Assembly (NCBI GenBank): GCA_018693105.1
Contig: JABHLN010000026.1
Coordinates: 1 to 40,536 of the forward strand
Origin: Desulfobacterales bacterium
GTDB taxonomy: Bacteria; Desulfobacterota; Desulfobacteria; Desulfobacterales; SURF-7
Direction of reading: 5' to 3'
DNA: 40,536 bases
This document shows, one piece after another, positions 19,609-29,857 of the stretch (position 1 is the first letter of the stretch; every line of letters starts with the position of its first letter). Both the position numbers and the translations under genes were made by a program. The notes beneath the pieces are model-generated. The model saw only the letters and a program-made list of their open reading frames with translations. It did no database searches and had not been told where the DNA came from.

Positions 19609-20379
19609 TTATCTTGTGATACCACGCTGGGAAGACTTGATAAAATCAAGAAAATGAGTCACTTCCGGTATCTGATCGACCTCTGCATTAACTCTTTCAA
19701 TTGCTTCATTTAAAGTAAGGCCGATGCGAAAAATGATTCTGTATGTTTTCTTTAAGGCTGCTAATGTATCTTTTGAAAAACCGTATCGTTTTAAACCAAC
19801 AGTGTTTAATCCGTGTAGTTTTACTCTGTCACCTGCTGCAATTACATAAGGTGGGATATCCTTCACTACAGCAGATTTCCCGCCAACAAATGCATAATCA
19901 CCAATTCTTGTAAACTGATGAATTGCTACAAGTCCTCCGATTGTTGCATAGTCACCGATTGTGATATGCCCTGCCAGAGTTGCATTATTGGAAAACACTA
20001 CTCCCCGCCCTATCTTGCAGTCATGAGCTACATGAGAGTAAGCCATTAAAAAATTTTCATCACCTACTTCGGTAACACCGCCACCAAACTCAGTTCCTCT
20101 ATGTATCGTTACAAACTCCCTTATAATTGTACCGCGACCAATTTTCACATAGGTCACTTCACCTCCAAATTTCAACGACTGGGGTTGTGCTCCTATAGCC
20201 GCATATTGGAATATCCGGCAATCAGGGCCGATTTTAACATATGGCTCAATGACAACGTGGGACCCGATCTTTGTTCCTTCACCAATTTCTACATCACTGG
20301 AAATAACTGAATAAGGCCCGATCTCTACATCCTTGCCTATACTGGTTTTTGAGTCGATCACTACTGTTGGATGTATCAA
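19609..20379 (-). CDS. lpxA: Acyl-ACP--UDP-N-acetylglucosamine O-acyltransferase
   Basis: First step of lipid A synthesis: transfers a 3-hydroxyacyl chain from ACP to UDP-GlcNAc (or, in some bacteria, its 3-amino form). A 256-aa left-handed beta-helix trimer. The catalytic His is in YSHVAHDCKIG (H119, matching H125 of E. coli), and LAGH (H138) matches H144. FVGGKSA places Gly at the E. coli G173 acyl-length ruler, compatible with a long acyl chain. The start is TTG, supported by AGGAGG 7 nt upstream; it lies 2 bp past the fabZ stop, so translation is coupled. Confidence 0.96.
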   Translation of the reverse strand: MIHPTVVIDSKTSIGKDVEIGPYSVISSDVEIGEGTKIGSHVVIEPYVKIGPDCRIFQYAAIGAQPQSLKFGGEVTYVKIGRGTIIREFVTIHRGTEFGGGVTEVGDENFLMAYSHVAHDCKIGRGVVFSNNATLAGHITIGDYATIGGLVAIHQFTRIGDYAFVGGKSAVVKDIPPYVIAAGDRVKLHGLNTVGLKRYGFSKDTLAALKKTYRIIFRIGLTLNEAIERVNAEVDQIPEVTHFLDFIKSSQRGITR

Positions 20380-20381
20380 GG

Positions 20382-20819
20382 TTATCCTCCTATTGTTGCC
20401 ATGAATTCAGCTTCTGTAACTACTTTTCCATCAACAGATGCGGTTCCGCTCATCTTGATTATCTTTCTTTTCAATTTAAGAACCTTAGTCTCAAGAATTA
20501 ATTGATCTCCTGGAAAAACAGGCTGTCTGAATTTCACTTTGTCAATAGACATAAAATAAATTAACCCTCCAACATCTTCAGCTGCTGATTCAAATGCAAG
20601 CACACCTCCAACCTGTGCCATTGCCTCAATAATAAGGACACCGGGCATTATCGGACGTCCAGGGAAATGCCCCTGGAAATGAGGTTCGTTAATTGTTACA
20701 TTTTTCAACCCGACAACTTTCTCACCTTTTACGAGTTCTGTTATCCGGTCAACCAGCAAAAAAGGATATCTGTGGGGCAGTAAATCCATAATCGCCTGAA
20801 TATCATAATCTTTTTCCAT
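20382..20819 (-). CDS. fabZ: (3R)-hydroxyacyl-ACP dehydratase FabZ
   Basis: Dehydrates 3-hydroxyacyl-ACP in fatty-acid elongation and so competes with LpxA and LpxD for 3-hydroxyacyl-ACP. A 145-aa hot-dog fold protein. [16 protein letters not shown] opens it, [29 protein letters not shown] contains the catalytic His (H51) and Glu (E65), and the length matches the family. An AGGAG ribosome site precedes the ATG. It is placed between lpxD and lpxA, the classic order, which keeps the three enzymes in balance. Confidence 0.97.
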
Positions 20820-20912
20820 TTTTTTCTCCTAATAAGGCTTTTATCAGACAAATCATTGTTTTTCCAATAAAATGAGATAAGGGCACATCAATTAGTTTCA
20901 TTAGCAACTCGG

Positions 20913-21935
20913 TTATTTTTTCTCAAGTTCATTCAACCTTTTTTCCAGTTCTTTGATTTTTTTTCTCATCTCAGGAAGTTTTGGAATAATTCGCTGGGAC
21001 CTTAACCATAACTTATGAGGCATTTCAGGAATACCTGACACAACTTCACCGCTTGCTACTGAACGCAGGACAGCAGTCTTTGGACCGACTGTAACATTAT
21101 CACCGATCTCAAGATGTCCTGCAACACCAGCCTGCCCTGCCAAAACTACATTTTTTCCGATATTTACACTACCGGAAATCCCAGCCTGTCCCGCAAACAC
21201 GCTGTTATCACCTATTGAAACATTATGCGCCACATGAACAAGATTGTCAGTCTTTACCCCTTTTCCTATTTTAGTTTCTCCAAATGTGGCTCTATCTATT
21301 GCATTACATGCACCAATCTCTACATCATCGCCTATGGTAACAACACCGATATGAGGTATTTTATGATAAACTTCACCGTCAAAGGCAAAACCGAAACCGT
21401 CGCTTCCTATTACTGTACCGGCATTAATGATAACCCTGTTTCCGATCCTGCATCCTGAAAGGATTGCAGTATTGGGATAAATTGTGACATCATCACCGAT
21501 AATAACTGAATCTTCAATGGTCACATTTGGATGAATTGTAACCCGGTCACCAATCGTAACATTTTTGTAAATAACGACAGAAGGTCCTATAGATGGATTA
21601 GTGCCGTATTTAAAATCATCTGCTATACAGGCTGCCGAATTAATGCCCTCTTTCTGTTTTACCGGCTGATAAAATAGCTGTACAACTCTTGCAAATGCAA
21701 CATGGGGATTTTTTACAATTATTAAATTCCCGGATGCTTCAGGAAGGTCATGGGGGACCAGAATACATCCTGCACAGGCTTCATCTATCTTTTTTAGAAA
21801 ATTCTTACTCCCGGCAAATGTTATTTCTGCATTACCTGCAACTTCAAACGGTACCGCCCCGCTAATACTTTTTTCTGGATCCCCTTTTAGTTCACCATTT
21901 AATATTTCAGCAATTCTTGAAAGTGTTATTTCCAT
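20913..21935 (-). CDS. lpxD: UDP-3-O-(3-hydroxyacyl)glucosamine N-acyltransferase
   Basis: Third step of lipid A synthesis, adding the N-linked 3-hydroxyacyl chain. The ORF track starts at 22013, but the protein family starts at MEITLSRIAEILNGELKGDPEKSISG (ATG at 21935), giving 340 aa, the usual length. The N-terminal uridine-binding domain precedes a long hexapeptide beta-helix (IGPSVVIYKNVTIGDRVTIHPNVTI and on). NLVHVAHNVSIGDN carries the catalytic His (H237 with this start, matching H239 of E. coli). A coiled-coil C-terminus (MRKKIKELEKRLNELEKK) closes it. The 93-bp gap to fabZ and the long upstream gap suggest it may begin its own transcript. Confidence 0.96.
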   Translation of the reverse strand: MEITLSRIAEILNGELKGDPEKSISGAVPFEVAGNAEITFAGSKNFLKKIDEACAGCILVPHDLPEASGNLIIVKNPHVAFARVVQLFYQPVKQKEGINSAACIADDFKYGTNPSIGPSVVIYKNVTIGDRVTIHPNVTIEDSVIIGDDVTIYPNTAILSGCRIGNRVIINAGTVIGSDGFGFAFDGEVYHKIPHIGVVTIGDDVEIGACNAIDRATFGETKIGKGVKTDNLVHVAHNVSIGDNSVFAGQAGISGSVNIGKNVVLAGQAGVAGHLEIGDNVTVGPKTAVLRSVASGEVVSGIPEMPHKLWLRSQRIIPKLPEMRKKIKELEKRLNELEKK

Positions 21936-22632
21936 TTTAATATTCTCAGCTTTAAAGGATATGTTATTATGTTCTTGTTTTAATATGGATAAAAACAATC
22001 CCAGGGCCCGCATTCATAACTGAAACATGGAACTATAATTCAGAAGGAGGGTCAGGTAAAGATTCAACCCCAAAGGACATGTATGGTTACCCCATGGACG
22101 TAATTATTAAAATTACCTGAATTCAGGATAAAAAACCCCAAATTATGCAGCAAGTATGGCCGGAATAGATGCGTGTCAAAAGGCGCACAAAATTAAGACA
22201 TTTGAATAACGCCTTTTATATAAAATTTCTTTTCCAGGCTCAATCCCGCTATAGCGGGATCTCCTTTCCTGAACATAAACAAAATTTTCATTTTAATATG
22301 CAATCTTTATCAAAAACAGGAGACTATCCACGGGACAAAAAAATCAGTACTAATCTTTTATTAGAACCGTTAACCTTTTAGAACCCATAATCAATATACC
22401 TTTATATCTCTTGAATAAAGACCCCGGTATAAATCTCAGCCACTCCAATATTATAAAAATAAAAGGAATCACCAGACAATATCTCACCGGAACCGACGTA
22501 TCAATTTAGACTCATTAATTGAGATCCAAAAGAGTATCTCCGGTACTCAGCAAAAAACCGGAAAAGCAGCATATATAATTGTTAATTATAAAATAGATCC
22601 TGTGTATTGATAATAAGATTTTACCCGGAAAA
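21936..22632. other. Gene-free gap between skp and lpxD
   Basis: About 0.7 kb with no convincing gene. It holds an 18-bp palindrome (22243-22260), a GTAATT/AATTAC stem (22100-22116) directly followed by the 12-bp palindrome CCTGAATTCAGG (22116-22127), and a TCCGGT/ACCGGA stem (22539-22562). On the - strand a TTGACA occurs at 22177-22182 but with a poor -10. The ORF 22169-22381 (+) has no family resemblance. The gap may hold a promoter for lpxD, or be a degraded insertion. Confidence 0.5.
22243..22260. repeat. 18-bp perfect palindrome ATCCCGCTATAGCGGGAT
   Basis: ATCCCGCTATAGCGGGAT equals its own reverse complement and is GC-richer than its surroundings. It is the only copy in the window. It could be an operator or a REP-like palindrome. 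Neither strand has a T-tract after it, so a terminator is unlikely. Confidence 0.5.
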
Positions 22633-23154
22633 TTATTTCTTCTTCTTTTTATTAATCTCTTTAATTACCCGGTCAGTTAAATCTATCTGATTTGGTGCAT
22701 ATAATACTGCCATTCTATCAACGATAAGAAGGTATTGTTCCTTTTTCCCGATTTTTTCAACAACTTCGATTATTTCTTTATGTATACGACCCACATGTAC
22801 CTTTTCAAGTTCTTTTAATTCAGCCAGATTTTTTTTCTCAAGAATTTTGAAGTCATTTAATTTTATTCTGAATTCCCGCTGCTTTTCTTCACGTTTATCT
22901 TTGTTCATTACAAGGAGTTCCCGATCATATTTTTCCTTGAGTTCATTAATTTCAGCGCCTCTCTTCTCAAGATCCGACCTCATTTTTTTCCCTTCTTTGA
23001 TCATAACTGCCTGAGCGACCTTGCCGGAATCTGACTTTGTAAGAACTTTCTGCATATTAACAGTCGCAATTTTTGCAATATCAGCCGCATACAAAGGCAT
23101 AGCTATTAAAGAGACACAAATTGCTGCAGCAAAAAAAGTAATTATTTTCTTCAT
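22633..23154 (-). CDS. skp: Periplasmic chaperone Skp/OmpH
   Basis: Holds unfolded outer-membrane proteins in the periplasm on their way to BamA. A 173-aa protein with signal peptide MKKIITFFAAAICVSLIAMPLYA (cleavage near residue 23). The mature start IAKIATVNMQKVLTKSDSGK is the OmpH family opening, followed by a long charged coiled-coil arm (about residues 50-125) and a C-terminal strand region ending in a lysine run. A strong GGAGG ribosome site precedes the ATG. It lies just downstream of bamA but behind a terminator and a candidate promoter, so it is probably transcribed separately. Confidence 0.92.
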   Translation of the reverse strand: MKKIITFFAAAICVSLIAMPLYAADIAKIATVNMQKVLTKSDSGKVAQAVMIKEGKKMRSDLEKRGAEINELKEKYDRELLVMNKDKREEKQREFRIKLNDFKILEKKNLAELKELEKVHVGRIHKEIIEVVEKIGKKEQYLLIVDRMAVLYAPNQIDLTDRVIKEINKKKKK

Positions 23155-23171
23155 TATACTCCTCCTTCAAT

Positions 23172-23233
23172 AAACCTGTTAAGGTTTCTGTTACTGTTCG
23201 TTAGATTTTCTCTCCCAAATCATTAGTAACAGA
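23172..23233 (-). promoter_or_regulatory. Structured 5' leader of skp (two hairpins)
   Basis: TCTGTTACT and AGTAACAGA (23187-23195 and 23225-23233) form a perfect 9-bp stem around a 29-nt loop, and AAACCT/AGGTTT (23172-23177 and 23182-23187) forms a 6-bp stem with a 4-nt loop. The second ends a few nt before the AGGAGG ribosome site of skp. Such stems could affect translation or stability of the skp message; no known riboswitch class is recognised. Confidence 0.4.
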
Positions 23234-23326
23234 TTTGTATATTGATTTCATCTATATGATGATATGGGAAAGTTTTCTCTTCAGAACATAAAATTTATTT
23301 ACTATATAGAACTAAACAATTATTTT

Positions 23327-23353
23327 TTTATAACTTTTTACTTATTATGTCAA
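23327..23353 (-). promoter_or_regulatory. Candidate sigma70 promoter for skp
   Basis: On the - strand TTGACA (23353-23348) and TATAAA (23332-23327) are separated by 15 bp, a short but usable spacing. The -35 box is a perfect consensus and begins within the T-tract of the bamA terminator. A transcript from here would have a leader of about 165 nt before the skp ATG. Confidence 0.45.
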
Positions 23354-23400
23354 AAAAGAGAATATGGGCACCAAAAAGTACGTTGGTGCAAATTATTCTC
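23351..23400 (-). terminator. Intrinsic terminator after bamA
   Basis: On the - strand, GAGAATA...TTGCACCAA-loop-TTGGTGC...TATTCTC folds into a two-part hairpin (7-bp outer stem 23358-23364/23394-23400; 7-bp inner stem 23368-23374/23383-23389), followed at once by TTTTTT. It lies 20 bp after the bamA stop, so it is well placed to end the lysS-lolCD-bamA transcript. Confidence 0.75.
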
Positions 23401-23419
23401 CTTGGTGACCGTGAGTACT

Positions 23420-26125
23420 TTAAAATGTTCCTCCAAGAGAAAATTCCCACTTACCGGTACTTGCTTCTCCTCCCTTAGGATCAAGGATATAACCATTCTC
23501 AAGCCTGATAGGACCAATTGGGGAGAACCATCTGAAACCGTATCCGGCACTTTCCCTTAATGCCCCGAAACTCATGTTTTCATTATCGTCAAACACATTG
23601 CCGGTATCGAAAAAAACAACTCCGACAATACCTGATTTCTCTCCGAACAATGGCACAAGAATTTCAGCATTAAACTGAACAAACTTATTGCCTCCTTTTT
23701 CTATATAATACTGAGTATCATCTCCGTCTATATCACCATCACCATCAGTATCTATAATAGAACTATAATAAGATCTGTTTATGTCACGATGGCCAAACCC
23801 CCGCATTGAATGGATACCGCCAAGATAAAACCGCTCATAATCAGGAAGTTTTCCGTCTGAATTTTGACTAACATAACCTGTTTTCGCATGAACAAAAAAA
23901 ACATTGTTCAGGAATGTCGGCATATACCATCCTGTTTCCGCCAGGTATTTTGTATACCCTACATCACCTCCAAGCATACCGCCGGCATAGATAAAATTAG
24001 CACTGTGATAAGATCCTTCTCTGGGATTCATACGATTAGGAAACCTTGAATCATAGTTTATACCTGTAGATATGCTTATAGTATCATTCTGACCACTCAT
24101 TTCATGTATGGACAATGGAGCATTAAGATAAATATTTAATATATCACTTTGCTTGTATGAAAGAGAAAGACTTGCACGTGTCAGGTCAAAAACAGGATAG
24201 CTGAAACGGAATCCACCCCCAATAGAATCCACATCATATGTATCATATCGAACCTTCAGATTGTATAAATTCACACCTGCAGATAATGGCATATCAAAAA
24301 GCCAGGGCTCGGTGAAAGATAAATTATACTGGTTTGATTCCCTCCCCAGATCCGCTTTTACCTGCAGTATCTGTCCAAGGCCGAAAAGATTATTCTGGGA
24401 GACACTAAATGTAGTAAACGGTCCTGTTCCACTGCTATATCCTGCACCAAAAGTAAACGCACCTGTTGGTTTTTCAGTTACATCAACTTTCAGCGTCATC
24501 GTGTCACCCGAGTCGCCCTTTATCGGATTCACCTTTATATCTTCAAAGAAATCAAGGCGATGCAGGTTACGAATCCCCTCTTTCATCCTACGGCCGCTGT
24601 AAAGTTCCTGCTCATATATCTTAAGTTCACGTCGGATAACCTTGTCCCTTGTTTTGGTGTTTCCACTGATAATAATTTGATCAAAATAAACAAGTTTGCC
24701 TTTACCAACAACAAAGGTAATATCGGCTGTTTTTTTATCAATATCCTTGTCAACTCTTGGAAAGATATCAGCGTAGTAATAGCCATTATCAGAATATATA
24801 TCTGTCAATAAGAGAACATCATTTCTTAGTATTTCCTGGTTAAGGACCTCCTCATTTCTAATTTTCAACCCCTCAAGAAGCTCATCTTTAGTTTTTAACA
24901 AATCACCGATTATATTAATTTCACCGACATTGAACTGTAACCCTTCTTGAATTTTTATTTTGATATAGATCCATTCATCCTCATATTTTATATCCGGCTC
25001 ACCAACTTTAGACTGAATAAAACCGTTATTACGATAAAAAACAGTAAGCTTTGATATATCGTGGTTAAGCTGCTCAATATTAAGCTCTCCTGATGAAGTC
25101 AGCCAGGATAAAAAACCTTTTTCTTTTGTTTTAAACATTTTCTTAAGCTTTTTATCAGAATATGAACTATTACCTTCAAAATCTATACTTTTAATTCTTA
25201 TAGTCACACCTTCTTCTATAACAAATTCCAGATCCGACTGGTTGTTCTCAAGAGGCTTGATATTATGTTTAACAATAGAATGATGTACATTCTTTTCAAT
25301 ATACAAATTCTCAATAGCCTTTATACTTTTGGCAATCACACTGTTATTAAGAATTGACCCGGTCTTGATATCCAGGGCACTTTTTATATCCTCATCACTT
25401 ATTCCAATATTTCCTTTCACAAGAATCTTTCTTAAAGTAGGTTTTTCCTTTACTTTAAAAATAATTATCCTACCCTTAGGGCCTTCTTCAAACTCAATTC
25501 TTATATCCTCGAAATAACCTTCTCCCATTGAATATACTAACTTCAAATCCTCTGAAAGATTTTCAGAACGATACACATTACCGGGCTTAGTTTTTATAAC
25601 TCTTAAAATAGCATCCTCTTCAATACGTTTGTTTCCTTCTACACGTATTTCCGCAATCTTTTCACGCTTAAAAATAATATTACCAAGGTTATCCGATAGA
25701 TTTTTTATGTTTTCATTAATATTGCTGACTCCTTCACCTTCGGAAAATAAAGGAATAGGCATGGTTTTATAAGCAGTTTCGGCCAGCCTCGCATCTATAC
25801 TAAATTTTTCACCGATAAAGGTTATGCTACCCCAAATGACATAATCTACACCAAGCTCAACACCGGTCTGCTTTATTTCTTCAGCGCTTTTTGCATTCTT
25901 CAAAAAATCAGTCTCAAATAATATATCCTCAGCAAAAACCACTGCGCCTTCATTTTTCAGTTGTGTTGCAATTTGAGCCTGAACCTCAGTTTGAAGATGA
26001 GTAAGATTTTCTTGGGAATAAACTTCAAATGGCAGAACTGCCACTTTCACTGTTCTTTGTGAATAGGCAGTATTGACTAAACAAAAAGCCATTATAAATA
26101 AAAAGAAACACAAATATCTATACAT
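23420..26125 (-). CDS. bamA: Outer-membrane protein assembly factor BamA (Omp85) with extra N-terminal domain
   Basis: Inserts beta-barrel proteins into the outer membrane. 901 aa, about 90 longer than E. coli BamA. Signal peptide about 1-22. Residues about 24-152 form an extra periplasmic domain (VKVAVLPFEVY...GVDYVIWGSITFIGEKFSIDARL) resembling TolB-N/CsgG-like domains. Five POTRA domains follow (about 157-229, 230-307, 308-395, 396-476, 477-553), then the 16-strand-type barrel from TGAFTFGAGYSSG. The conserved loop-6 motif reads SMRGFGHRD (about 773-781) and is followed by an unusual acidic stretch DTDGDGDIDGDD. The C-terminus KWEFSLGGTF ends in Phe, as outer-membrane barrels do. A GAGGAG ribosome site precedes the ATG. 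Confidence 0.95.
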   Translation of the reverse strand: MYRYLCFFLFIMAFCLVNTAYSQRTVKVAVLPFEVYSQENLTHLQTEVQAQIATQLKNEGAVVFAEDILFETDFLKNAKSAEEIKQTGVELGVDYVIWGSITFIGEKFSIDARLAETAYKTMPIPLFSEGEGVSNINENIKNLSDNLGNIIFKREKIAEIRVEGNKRIEEDAILRVIKTKPGNVYRSENLSEDLKLVYSMGEGYFEDIRIEFEEGPKGRIIIFKVKEKPTLRKILVKGNIGISDEDIKSALDIKTGSILNNSVIAKSIKAIENLYIEKNVHHSIVKHNIKPLENNQSDLEFVIEEGVTIRIKSIDFEGNSSYSDKKLKKMFKTKEKGFLSWLTSSGELNIEQLNHDISKLTVFYRNNGFIQSKVGEPDIKYEDEWIYIKIKIQEGLQFNVGEINIIGDLLKTKDELLEGLKIRNEEVLNQEILRNDVLLLTDIYSDNGYYYADIFPRVDKDIDKKTADITFVVGKGKLVYFDQIIISGNTKTRDKVIRRELKIYEQELYSGRRMKEGIRNLHRLDFFEDIKVNPIKGDSGDTMTLKVDVTEKPTGAFTFGAGYSSGTGPFTTFSVSQNNLFGLGQILQVKADLGRESNQYNLSFTEPWLFDMPLSAGVNLYNLKVRYDTYDVDSIGGGFRFSYPVFDLTRASLSLSYKQSDILNIYLNAPLSIHEMSGQNDTISISTGINYDSRFPNRMNPREGSYHSANFIYAGGMLGGDVGYTKYLAETGWYMPTFLNNVFFVHAKTGYVSQNSDGKLPDYERFYLGGIHSMRGFGHRDINRSYYSSIIDTDGDGDIDGDDTQYYIEKGGNKFVQFNAEILVPLFGEKSGIVGVVFFDTGNVFDDNENMSFGALRESAGYGFRWFSPIGPIRLENGYILDPKGGEASTGKWEFSLGGTF

Positions 26126-26140
26126 AAATAAGCTCCTCGA

Positions 26141-26893
26141 TCAAGTTTCTATCAGTTGACCATCAACAATTGTTATGCTTCGTGACATATAAGCTGCAAG
26201 GTCCATATTATGGGTAACTACAACCATTGTCATGGAAAGTTCACTGTTTAATTCCATAAGCAGTTCATGAACCTGTTCACTATTTTTTTTATCAAGATTA
26301 CCGGTTGGTTCATCAGCAAGAAGAACAGGCGGCCTGAGAATAATAGCCCTTGCCAAAGCAACTCTTTGCTGTTCTCCACCTGAAAGCTCACTGACTCTAT
26401 GTGAAAGTCTTTCCTTTAACCCGACCCTCACAAGAATAGATTCAGCCGACTCGCTTGCATCATGCCTTTTCTGCCCATTTATAAGTGCCGGCATCATTGT
26501 ATTCTCAATAGCACTGAACTCCGGAAGTAGATAATGAAACTGGAAAACAAAACCAATATTACTATTCCTGAAGCTGGCCAGACTTTCATCCTTAAGTTGA
26601 AAAACATTTTCCCCACTTATCATTAAAGTCCCCATGTCAGGCCTGTCAAGTGTACCTATTATCTGAAGAAAAGTTGACTTGCCTATGCCTGAAGCGCCCA
26701 CAACAGCAATGGTTTCCCCTAATTTAATGGAAAAATTCACCCCTTTTAATATCTCAATATCGGTTCCGTTGTTTCGATAACTTTTGAATATATTCTCTCC
26801 GGTTATCATATCTTCGGAAACACTACTTACGGATTTTAAACTGCTATCCGGTTTCTTGTCATCATTTTTTGTATCAGCTTTTTTGTCAACCAT
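26141..26893 (-). CDS. lolD: Lipoprotein-releasing ABC ATPase LolD
   Basis: Powers extraction of outer-membrane lipoproteins from the inner membrane. The track start is a TTG at 26908; the ATG at 26893 with GAGG 9 nt upstream is better, giving 250 aa and an 8-bp overlap with the end of lolC. An N-terminal extension of about 30 charged residues precedes the ABC domain. Walker A is GASGIGKST, the LolD-like FVFQFHYLLPEFSAIENTMMPALI segment follows, then LSGGEQQRVALARA and VLLADEPTGNLD. Its pairing with LolC identifies it as LolD rather than MacB- or FtsE-type ATPase. Confidence 0.93.
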   Translation of the reverse strand: MVDKKADTKNDDKKPDSSLKSVSSVSEDMITGENIFKSYRNNGTDIEILKGVNFSIKLGETIAVVGASGIGKSTFLQIIGTLDRPDMGTLMISGENVFQLKDESLASFRNSNIGFVFQFHYLLPEFSAIENTMMPALINGQKRHDASESAESILVRVGLKERLSHRVSELSGGEQQRVALARAIILRPPVLLADEPTGNLDKKNSEQVHELLMELNSELSMTMVVVTHNMDLAAYMSRSITIVDGQLIET

Positions 26894-28118
26894 TACGAAT
26901 TGCCTCAACAGGATCTATTTTGGAAGCCTGATGCGCAGGATACAATGTTGCAAAAAAGCATATTATCAGAGCAGATGATCCTATCATAAAAACATCAGAA
27001 AGCTGAAGGTTAACCGGAAGATTAATAAAATTATATACGTCCCCAGGCATTTTAATCTTGTAATTTTCCAACAATGAACAGAGAACATAGCCCATGCATC
27101 CGCCAAGAACTGTACCTATCGAACCGATAACCATACCTTTGAAAATGAAAATTTTACGTATACTTTTATTTTTTGCTCCCATTGCTTTTAATATTCCAAT
27201 GTCTCTCTTTTTTTCCATCACCATCATAATAAGTGAACTTGTAATATTAAAAGCTGCAACAAGTTCTATCAACACAAGAATAATAAACATAGCCTTTTTT
27301 TCCAGCTCAAGTGCGGAAAAAAAATTATGATTCATCTGCATCCAATCCCTTGCCCAAAAAGGAGAACCAAGGTTTCCTACTATCTTTTCAGCAATACTTT
27401 TGGCATTTTCTACATCAGTCACCCTTATTTCTATACCGGTAACTGTACTGTCCATATGGAGAATCTTCTGAGCGTCATCAAGATGTATATATGAAAAATT
27501 TCCATCATATTCATACATACCTGACTCAAAAATCCCTGTCACTTTGAATCGTTTCATTGAAGGTGCAGGCTTTATTCCAAATGGTGAAATCAAAACACTC
27601 AATGATATCACGTGAAGCTCATCACCTTTCATAACACCGAGGTTCTTAGCAAGTTCCTTCCCCAGAATTATACCAGGAGTTATACTGTTTTCTGCTTTAT
27701 CCTTCCCTAACTGATCAGGCAACAAATTCCCGTCAAGAACCTTTATTACTTTGCTTGCTGAAAAAGGATCAACTCCTCTAAGTACAGCTCCTGACACCCC
27801 AAATGATGACCGAAGCATAACCTGAGTGTTTATGAAAGGTGTAGCTGCTTCAACACCTTCATTCTTTTCAATGTCAGCAAGAACTCCCGGGTAGTCAGCA
27901 AGCCTGCCCCCGTGTTGCATTAAAACCACATGAGACTCTACGCCAAGAATACAGGATTTGAAATAGGATTCAGCCCCGGCCATAACTGCAATAACAGTAA
28001 TCAGAGCCATAACCCCAACCGTAACACCTGCAATTGAAAGTATTGTGATCAGAGAGATGAATACCTGTTTCTGTTTGCTTCTCAGATACCTGCGCCCGAT
28101 GAAAAGTTCAAAAGCCAT
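26886..28118 (-). CDS. lolC: Lipoprotein-releasing ABC permease LolC/LolE family
   Basis: A 410-aa inner-membrane permease with one N-terminal membrane helix (about residues 21-48), a large periplasmic MacB-like domain (about 50-265) and three C-terminal helices. FELFIGRRYLRSKQKQVFISLITILSIAGVTVGVMALI and the C-terminal YPAHQASKIDPVEAIRNG are LolC/E signatures. Only one permease gene is present beside one lolD, so the complex may be a homodimer (LolF-type) or a second permease may be elsewhere. It lies 239 bp after lysS. Confidence 0.92.
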   Translation of the reverse strand: MAFELFIGRRYLRSKQKQVFISLITILSIAGVTVGVMALITVIAVMAGAESYFKSCILGVESHVVLMQHGGRLADYPGVLADIEKNEGVEAATPFINTQVMLRSSFGVSGAVLRGVDPFSASKVIKVLDGNLLPDQLGKDKAENSITPGIILGKELAKNLGVMKGDELHVISLSVLISPFGIKPAPSMKRFKVTGIFESGMYEYDGNFSYIHLDDAQKILHMDSTVTGIEIRVTDVENAKSIAEKIVGNLGSPFWARDWMQMNHNFFSALELEKKAMFIILVLIELVAAFNITSSLIMMVMEKKRDIGILKAMGAKNKSIRKIFIFKGMVIGSIGTVLGGCMGYVLCSLLENYKIKMPGDVYNFINLPVNLQLSDVFMIGSSALIICFFATLYPAHQASKIDPVEAIRNG

Positions 28119-28357
28119 ATATAACCGGTATTTGTTACGGGTAGATAATAAAAGAAGACCAAGGCTGTGATTGAAATATAATACCCTTACAAAATTCTAT
28201 TTCAATATTATCAATTAAAACAATTACACACACAAATTATAGCATGATCTCACAATACAAAAAAAACTATTTATTCCGATATATCCTGTCATTAAAAAAT
28301 GTTATATGGGATATGTTTTTTGTCTCATATGATTTTTTTTTAATTTAAACCCCGCTA

Positions 28358-29857
28358 CTACCTTTTCCCAGAAGGTTTCATATGTGGAAAAAGAATAACC
28401 TCCCGGATGGAAGCAGAATCAGTCAGAAGCATAGCAAGCCGGTCAATTCCAATTCCTTCACCCGCAGTTGGGGGCATTCCGTATTCAAGTGCCTCAATAT
28501 AATCTTCATCCATAAAATGAGCCTCTTCATCACCTGATTCTCTATCCGCAACCTGTTGCAGGAAACGGTCTTTCTGGTCAACAGGATCATTGAGCTCGGA
28601 AAAACCATTGGCTATTTCGCGCCCTGCAATAAAAAGCTCGAAACGTTCTGTAAGTGTCGGTTCCTTATCACTCCTTCTTGAAAGTGGAGACACTTCTACT
28701 GGATATCCAGTAATAAAAGTGGGTTGTAAAAGCATTGGTTCGACAAGTACATCGAACAGTTTTGTAATTATTTTACCATGACTTTCAGGACCGGAACCGT
28801 CCTTTTTTGTCACACGAATCCCCTTTGAAGAAGCAAACTCGAGAAGTTCTTCCCTGTCATTAAGAATATTCTCAGCCACACCTCCAATTTCAGTGAGAGA
28901 TGTCAACAATGGAATGCGATTCCATTTACCTGCAAATTTGATTTCTTCATCTTGATAAATTACTGAGGTTGAACCTGTAACTTCAAGGGCTACATCACGG
29001 AACATCTCCTCAGTCAAATCCATTAGGTCTTCAAAAGTAGCATATGCCTGATAAAATTCAAGCATTGTAAACTCAGGATTATGTCTTGTTGAAATACCCT
29101 CGTTCCTGAAATTCCTGTTTATTTCAAAAACTCTTTCAAATCCACCAACTACAAGCCGTTTTAAATATAGTTCAGGAGCGATACGCAGAAAAAGGTCTAT
29201 TCCAAGTGCTTTATGATGTGTAACAAAGGGGGTTGCCTCAGCTCCTCCGGGAATTGGATGCATCATTGGAGTTTCCACTTCAAGGTAATCCCGTTTAAGA
29301 AGAAATGTTCTTATAGCCTGAATTATTTTACTCCTTTTTATAAATAATTCACGTACTTCCTCATTCATAAGCAGATCAAGATAACGTTTCCTATAACGTT
29401 TTTCAGGGTCTTTTAAACCATGAAACTTTTCAGGGAGAGGTCTTATAGACTTACATAGAAGTGTCATTTCATCTGCAAGTAGGGTCCACTCCCCTGTCTT
29501 GGTTTTAAAAATTCCTCCTGAAAGTCCAACAAAATCTCCTACATCAAGCTGTTTAAATAGATTGTATGCTTCATCGCCTACCTTATCCTTCCTGATATAT
29601 GCCTGCATTTGCCCGGTTCTATCTCTAAGCCTTATAAAAGATGACTTACCGAATTTGTTTATAGCCATCATTCGACCGGCAATTGTAAATACCGTTTCAT
29701 TTTCCGAAATAGAATCTGATAGTCCCTCAATCATTCTTTTAATATCTTTTATAGTATTTGTGACTATAAAATCATTAGAAAAAAGGTTAACATTTGAACT
29801 TGCCAGCTCATTCAGCTTATCTCTTCTTTTTTGTAAAACATCACTCGTTTTTTCCAT
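28358..29857 (-). CDS. lysS: Lysyl-tRNA synthetase, class II
   Basis: Charges tRNA-Lys. A 499-aa protein with an N-terminal OB-fold anticodon domain (about residues 57-140, FTIAGRMMAINKFGKSSFIRLRDRTGQMQAYI) and a class II catalytic core. Motif 2 reads VFEINRNFRNEGISTRHNPEFTMLE and motif 3 reads GEGIGIDRLAMLLTDS; EKRYRKRYLDLL is the linker typical of LysRS. Length matches bacterial LysS. In this region it heads the lolC-lolD-bamA set on the - strand. No T-box or other leader motif was seen upstream. Confidence 0.97.
   Translation of the reverse strand: MEKTSDVLQKRRDKLNELASSNVNLFSNDFIVTNTIKDIKRMIEGLSDSISENETVFTIAGRMMAINKFGKSSFIRLRDRTGQMQAYIRKDKVGDEAYNLFKQLDVGDFVGLSGGIFKTKTGEWTLLADEMTLLCKSIRPLPEKFHGLKDPEKRYRKRYLDLLMNEEVRELFIKRSKIIQAIRTFLLKRDYLEVETPMMHPIPGGAEATPFVTHHKALGIDLFLRIAPELYLKRLVVGGFERVFEINRNFRNEGISTRHNPEFTMLEFYQAYATFEDLMDLTEEMFRDVALEVTGSTSVIYQDEEIKFAGKWNRIPLLTSLTEIGGVAENILNDREELLEFASSKGIRVTKKDGSGPESHGKIITKLFDVLVEPMLLQPTFITGYPVEVSPLSRRSDKEPTLTERFELFIAGREIANGFSELNDPVDQKDRFLQQVADRESGDEEAHFMDEDYIEALEYGMPPTAGEGIGIDRLAMLLTDSASIREVILFPHMKPSGKR

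Follow-up and report, generated by a model that had tools for sequence, protein, structure and literature searches.

A TolB-N-like domain ahead of the POTRA arm of BamA in Desulfobacterota

At the core of an essential machine stands BamA, a protein whose periplasmic arm is commonly described in terms of POTRA domains alone. The N-terminal domain of TolB (PF04052), which precedes the TolB propeller, belongs to a fold class that also includes GNA1162, PelC, LpoB, CsgG and FlgO, proteins that are mostly lipoproteins or ring-formers and are not known to be fused to an Omp85 barrel. Non-POTRA periplasmic domains on such barrels do occur: the sections of an Omp85 survey considered here describe WD40-Omp85 and other subfamilies with non-POTRA N-terminal domains, that of the WD40 type resembling the TolB propeller (PMC4104836). 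With regard to the partners of BamA, Anwari et al. (2012, PMC3359395) state that there is no evidence for BamB, BamC or BamE as components of BAM in delta-proteobacteria.

In the window, a stretch of 40,536 nucleotides from a Desulfobacterales genome, the bamA gene (23420..26125, minus strand) encodes a protein of 901 aa with a signal peptide, a TolB-N-like domain, POTRA1-5 and an Omp85 barrel. It has the five POTRAs, the barrel and the gene order lolC-lolD-bamA-skp-lpxD-fabZ-lpxA in common with the known BamA (YaeT), but differs from it by the extra domain before POTRA1. This domain is fused to BamA and not to a TolB propeller and, unlike GNA1162, PelC, LpoB, CsgG and FlgO, it sits on an Omp85 barrel. 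It also differs from the WD40-Omp85 types, which in the same sections of the survey appear as separate subfamilies with other N-terminal domains, whereas in the present case a complete BamA has received the additional domain; it is not among the BamA architectures covered there. An open-access literature search returned no description of a TolB-N-like domain on BamA, and the arrangement is apparently undescribed, the sequences themselves being public.

The assignment as BamA follows from the curated NCBIfam model OM_YaeT, which matches aa 156-901 over its cut-off (E 5e-183), and from Pfam, which finds POTRA in five stretches as well as the Omp85 barrel (aa 579-901; 23423..24391, minus strand); the five POTRA domains lie at about aa 156-553 (24467..25660, minus strand), and the first two of them are also seen in a structural model and by Foldseek. 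It is the only full-length BamA match in this genome, and the gene lies in a minus-strand run of envelope-biogenesis genes (19609-29857) composed of lysS-like, lolC, lolD, bamA, skp/ompH, lpxD, fabZ and lpxA. Between lpxD and skp, about 620 bases (22014-22632) hold no ORF of at least 80 aa. A plasmid search with the bamA gene gave no match.

The extra domain comprises aa 24-152 (25670..26056, minus strand), which lie outside the NCBIfam BamA, Pfam POTRA and Omp85 matches; the first-pass annotation had placed an additional domain at exactly this position ahead of five POTRAs, and it is confirmed here. The same annotation had considered that a true start further downstream might exclude this part from the protein. 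This is ruled out by a Shine-Dalgarno sequence (GAGGAG, 26133-26138, minus strand) 7 nt upstream of the ATG at 26125, by a Sec signal peptide directly ahead of the domain (aa 1-23, MYRYLCFFLFIMAFCLVNTAYSQ; 26057..26125, minus strand), in which no lipobox is seen by eye, and by the BamA homologues, in which the signal peptide is likewise followed by the domain and then by POTRA1, and which thereby also speak against a mis-called start. In the domain-less BamAs of L091, L095 and L126, POTRA1 follows directly after the signal peptide.

By its predicted structure and profile matches, this region is a domain of the TolB-N/FlgO/LpoB/CsgG type. Searched as a single sequence against Pfam, NCBIfam and the PDB, the window domain gave nothing significant, and it has no TolB_N match over the PF04052 gathering cut-off, although some homologues do match; the fold is assigned from profiles and structure, single-sequence searches being insufficient. 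An AlphaFold2 model obtained from a 75-member alignment of the domain, drawn from related BamAs, has a mean pLDDT of 88, a pTM of 0.84 and the element order beta-beta-alpha-beta-alpha-alpha-beta-beta-beta-alpha. Compared with solved structures in Foldseek, it matches GNA1162 (E 2.5e-7) and also TolB, PelC, LpoB and CsgG, with E values for the non-TolB members of up to about 1e-3; it superimposes on TolB with TM-scores of 0.73 (2w8b) and 0.75 (9a2l) and an rmsd of 2.7-2.9 Å over about 130 columns. Among the 75 aligned members, Pfam finds TolB_N in 19 (best 2.4e-8), weak matches to FlgO in 23 (best 2e-3), DUF3280 in 13 and LpoB in 3, and hhalign pairs the domain with TolB-N at 82% (E 1e-5). The fold suggested in the first-pass annotation is thus borne out, and the predicted fold agrees with the solved members of the TolB-N/CsgG/LpoB group.

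A sixth POTRA, the alternative named in the first-pass annotation, is ruled out by the same analyses: the model does not show the beta-alpha-alpha-beta-beta fold, there is no POTRA among the 50 best Foldseek matches listed, and hhalign comparisons with four POTRA profiles stay under 0.5% each, POTRA1 against POTRA5 reaching 98% as a positive control. In a second model, covering aa 23-310, a linker of about four residues connects the extra domain to two POTRAs, with high confidence at the junction, the pTM of 0.65 leaving the relative domain orientation uncertain. These two domains align with POTRA1-2 of E. coli BamA in Foldseek, so the extra domain is an addition and not a remodelled POTRA.

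The most conserved part of the domain is a hairpin at aa 95-111 (25793..25843, minus strand; Y95 ... G99-S100 ... S109-x-D111), in which G99 is invariant and S100, S109 and D111 are 84-92% conserved. S100, T102, S109, D111 and K/R113 are polar, highly conserved and alternate with hydrophobic residues on two neighbouring strands; this set may belong to a contact surface or to a network of internal hydrogen bonds. Overall, the domain changes more rapidly than the remainder of BamA, its mean column identity being 34%, compared with 60% over the full protein; the two values come from different sequence sets.

The domain is widespread in related bacteria. Used as the sole query against 40 genomes (about 29 families), it recovers homologues of BamA in most of them, with E values of 1e-16 to 1e-28, which excludes chance by far. 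An assembly or annotation quirk of a single genome is ruled out as well. Nearly all BamAs of the window's own order have it, and named carriers include Desulfobacter, Desulfobacula, Desulfospira, Desulfoluna, Desulfarculus, Desulfacinum and Desulfofervidaceae; the titles of the best 80 matches of a genome scan refer to Desulfobacterota-type lineages or to unspecified Delta-/Proteobacteria MAGs. For the survey of Desulfobacterota architectures proposed in the first-pass annotation, we sampled 148 genomes of the phylum with a completeness of at least 90%, of which 144 have a BamA at E<=1e-40. Eighty BamAs from about 65 families were classified together with the window's; the domain is present in 41 of these 81 and absent in 40, three of the carriers (G064, G126, G151) having very diverged copies that were recognized by eye only.

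On a POTRA-plus-barrel tree of the 81 BamAs, this distribution needs five gain or loss changes, compared with 27 in shuffles, a pattern consistent with ancient acquisition, vertical inheritance and a small number of losses. The main carrier clade holds three nested losses (G156 with L091, L095 and L126; G104 and G154; G068), the BamAs of L091, L095 and L126 standing near the window's, and a second small carrier clade (G052, G118, G089, G142) is separated from it by weakly supported branches. A tree of the domain itself sets the BamA copies apart from true TolB (branch 100), and the AU test (p 0.90, about 130 columns) does not reject that they form a single clade. The domain was gained between the signal peptide and POTRA1 once or very few times, long ago; most simply, it was acquired a single time in the distant past, inherited vertically and lost several times, two separate gains being conceivable as well.

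The window's genome contains one other clear copy of the domain, at the N-terminus of a 559-aa FG-GAP-repeat protein (L002/L150:315-1991). True TolB is encoded in addition, as a protein of its own. FG-GAP repeats form beta-propellers. The N-terminal domains of the BamA and FG-GAP families are paralogous, with an hhalign match of 100% (E 1.3e-39), and the FG-GAP protein carries a signal peptide in which no lipobox is obvious by eye. Its gene does not lie next to bamA, and across 20 loci no known envelope-machine gene recurs near it; a gene with a weak match to Alginate_exp, an outer-membrane barrel, is found close by in 9 of the 20 (including L150:2369-3658 and L152:6532-7866). Genomes of the order have one to several copies of the FG-GAP protein (for example, L160 and L162 have two each, and L163 has three N-domain matches), and L186, L191 and L192 have proteins of 363-390 aa in which a proline-rich tail replaces the FG-GAP repeats behind the same N-domain.

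The BamA domain and the FG-GAP protein tend to occur together. Searched with a full-length FG-GAP profile (A4), 35 of 50 domain-bearing but only 4 of 43 domain-less BamA rows have a strong match (Fisher 1e-9), a value inflated by shared ancestry and based on a threshold chosen after the data had been seen; with a looser threshold, the counts are 38 of 50 and 15 of 43 (p 1e-4). The same profile matched all nine domain-bearing comparison genomes, of which eight were scored as having the protein and one, that of L136, as lacking a clear one. Where the domain has been lost, no FG-GAP match is found in G156, G068, G104 and G154 at E<=1e-15, nor in the genomes of L091, L095 and L126 at E<=1e-6. In independent pairs, an average of 3.4 out of 4 agree and none disagree (median p 0.25), the test falling short of significance because there are only about four independent changes. 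Exceptions exist in both directions, namely 15 domain-bearing rows without a strong FG-GAP match and the domain-less G059, G080, G046 and G114 with one, so the two proteins are not obligate partners. We therefore regard this association, which is strong but comprises few independent events, as a lead and not as proof.

A role in recruiting partners to BamA is plausible. Lying about four residues ahead of POTRA1, the domain caps the periplasm-facing end of the POTRA arm, where it could hold a periplasmic partner beside the substrate- and chaperone-receiving POTRA1; alternatively, it might orient BamA toward the peptidoglycan or the inner membrane. The leading candidate partner, for which we see moderate support, is the FG-GAP-repeat protein, soluble and about 560 aa long, whose paralogous N-terminal domain could pair with that of BamA and so bring a likely beta-propeller to it. 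On balance, we think that the extra domain, at the tip of BamA that faces the periplasm, probably serves for docking, with the FG-GAP protein as its foremost candidate partner.

LpoB is the activator of a PBP, and TolB connects TolA with Pal. Given the fold class that the BamA domain has in common with LpoB and the TolB N-domain, and its place at the outermost point of the POTRA arm, it might analogously couple BamA to peptidoglycan synthesis or to Tol-Pal. We consider this unlikely, as true TolB is encoded in the same genome and the TolBs of the order have a stretch before the first strand (for example YDYIDITNPFLKK), at the position of the TolA-binding box of E. coli TolB, that the BamA domain does not have. 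Judged by sequence, the latter starts almost at its first strand and is devoid of an N-terminal TolA-binding box, so a TolA link through that peptide is improbable.

The rapid evolution of the domain relative to the POTRAs and barrel, its several secondary losses and the very diverged copies in G064, G126 and G151 would also suit a passive spacer or a fold-stabilizing cap without any partner. Yet the domain has been retained for long, its losses coincide with the absence of the FG-GAP protein, and the hairpin residues G99, S100, S109 and D111 are conserved, though possibly for structural reasons; in our view, a mere spacer is thus rather improbable.

The remaining Bam subunits are distributed as the work on delta-proteobacteria would suggest. 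BamD is found in 147 of the 148 sampled genomes, and BamE-like matches in 26 (19 over the cut-off). No genome has a BamB match over the cut-off, and 35 have weaker ones; a widespread BamD together with rare BamB and BamE is consistent with PMC3359395. Presence of the domain shows no clear association with either BamB (Fisher p 0.40 with a limit of E<=2e-24 and 0.06 with E<=1e-5) or BamE (p 0.76). The proposal of the first-pass annotation that the domain stands in for a missing Bam lipoprotein, considered here for BamB and BamE, fits the window's genome, where BamD is found and neither of the two is matched, but is very improbable, since both are mostly absent with or without the domain, domain-less BamAs of the phylum included, and the domain-bearing clade of G052, G118, G089 and G142 even has BamB-like proteins.

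If the docking reading holds, it may have consequences beyond this locus. Of the Bam subunits, only BamA and BamD were seen to be widespread in the phylum, and we can tentatively imagine that much of it uses its own form of BAM, made of BamA, BamD and an FG-GAP propeller that would be held by domain-domain pairing and not by a lipid anchor, a possibility to which we give limited credence. An inherited, phylum-scale domain on BamA, in bacteria where BamB, BamC and BamE are missing or rare, marks a place to seek BAM partners outside the well-studied Proteobacteria, and the FG-GAP protein with its paralogous domain is one candidate partner that is directly testable.
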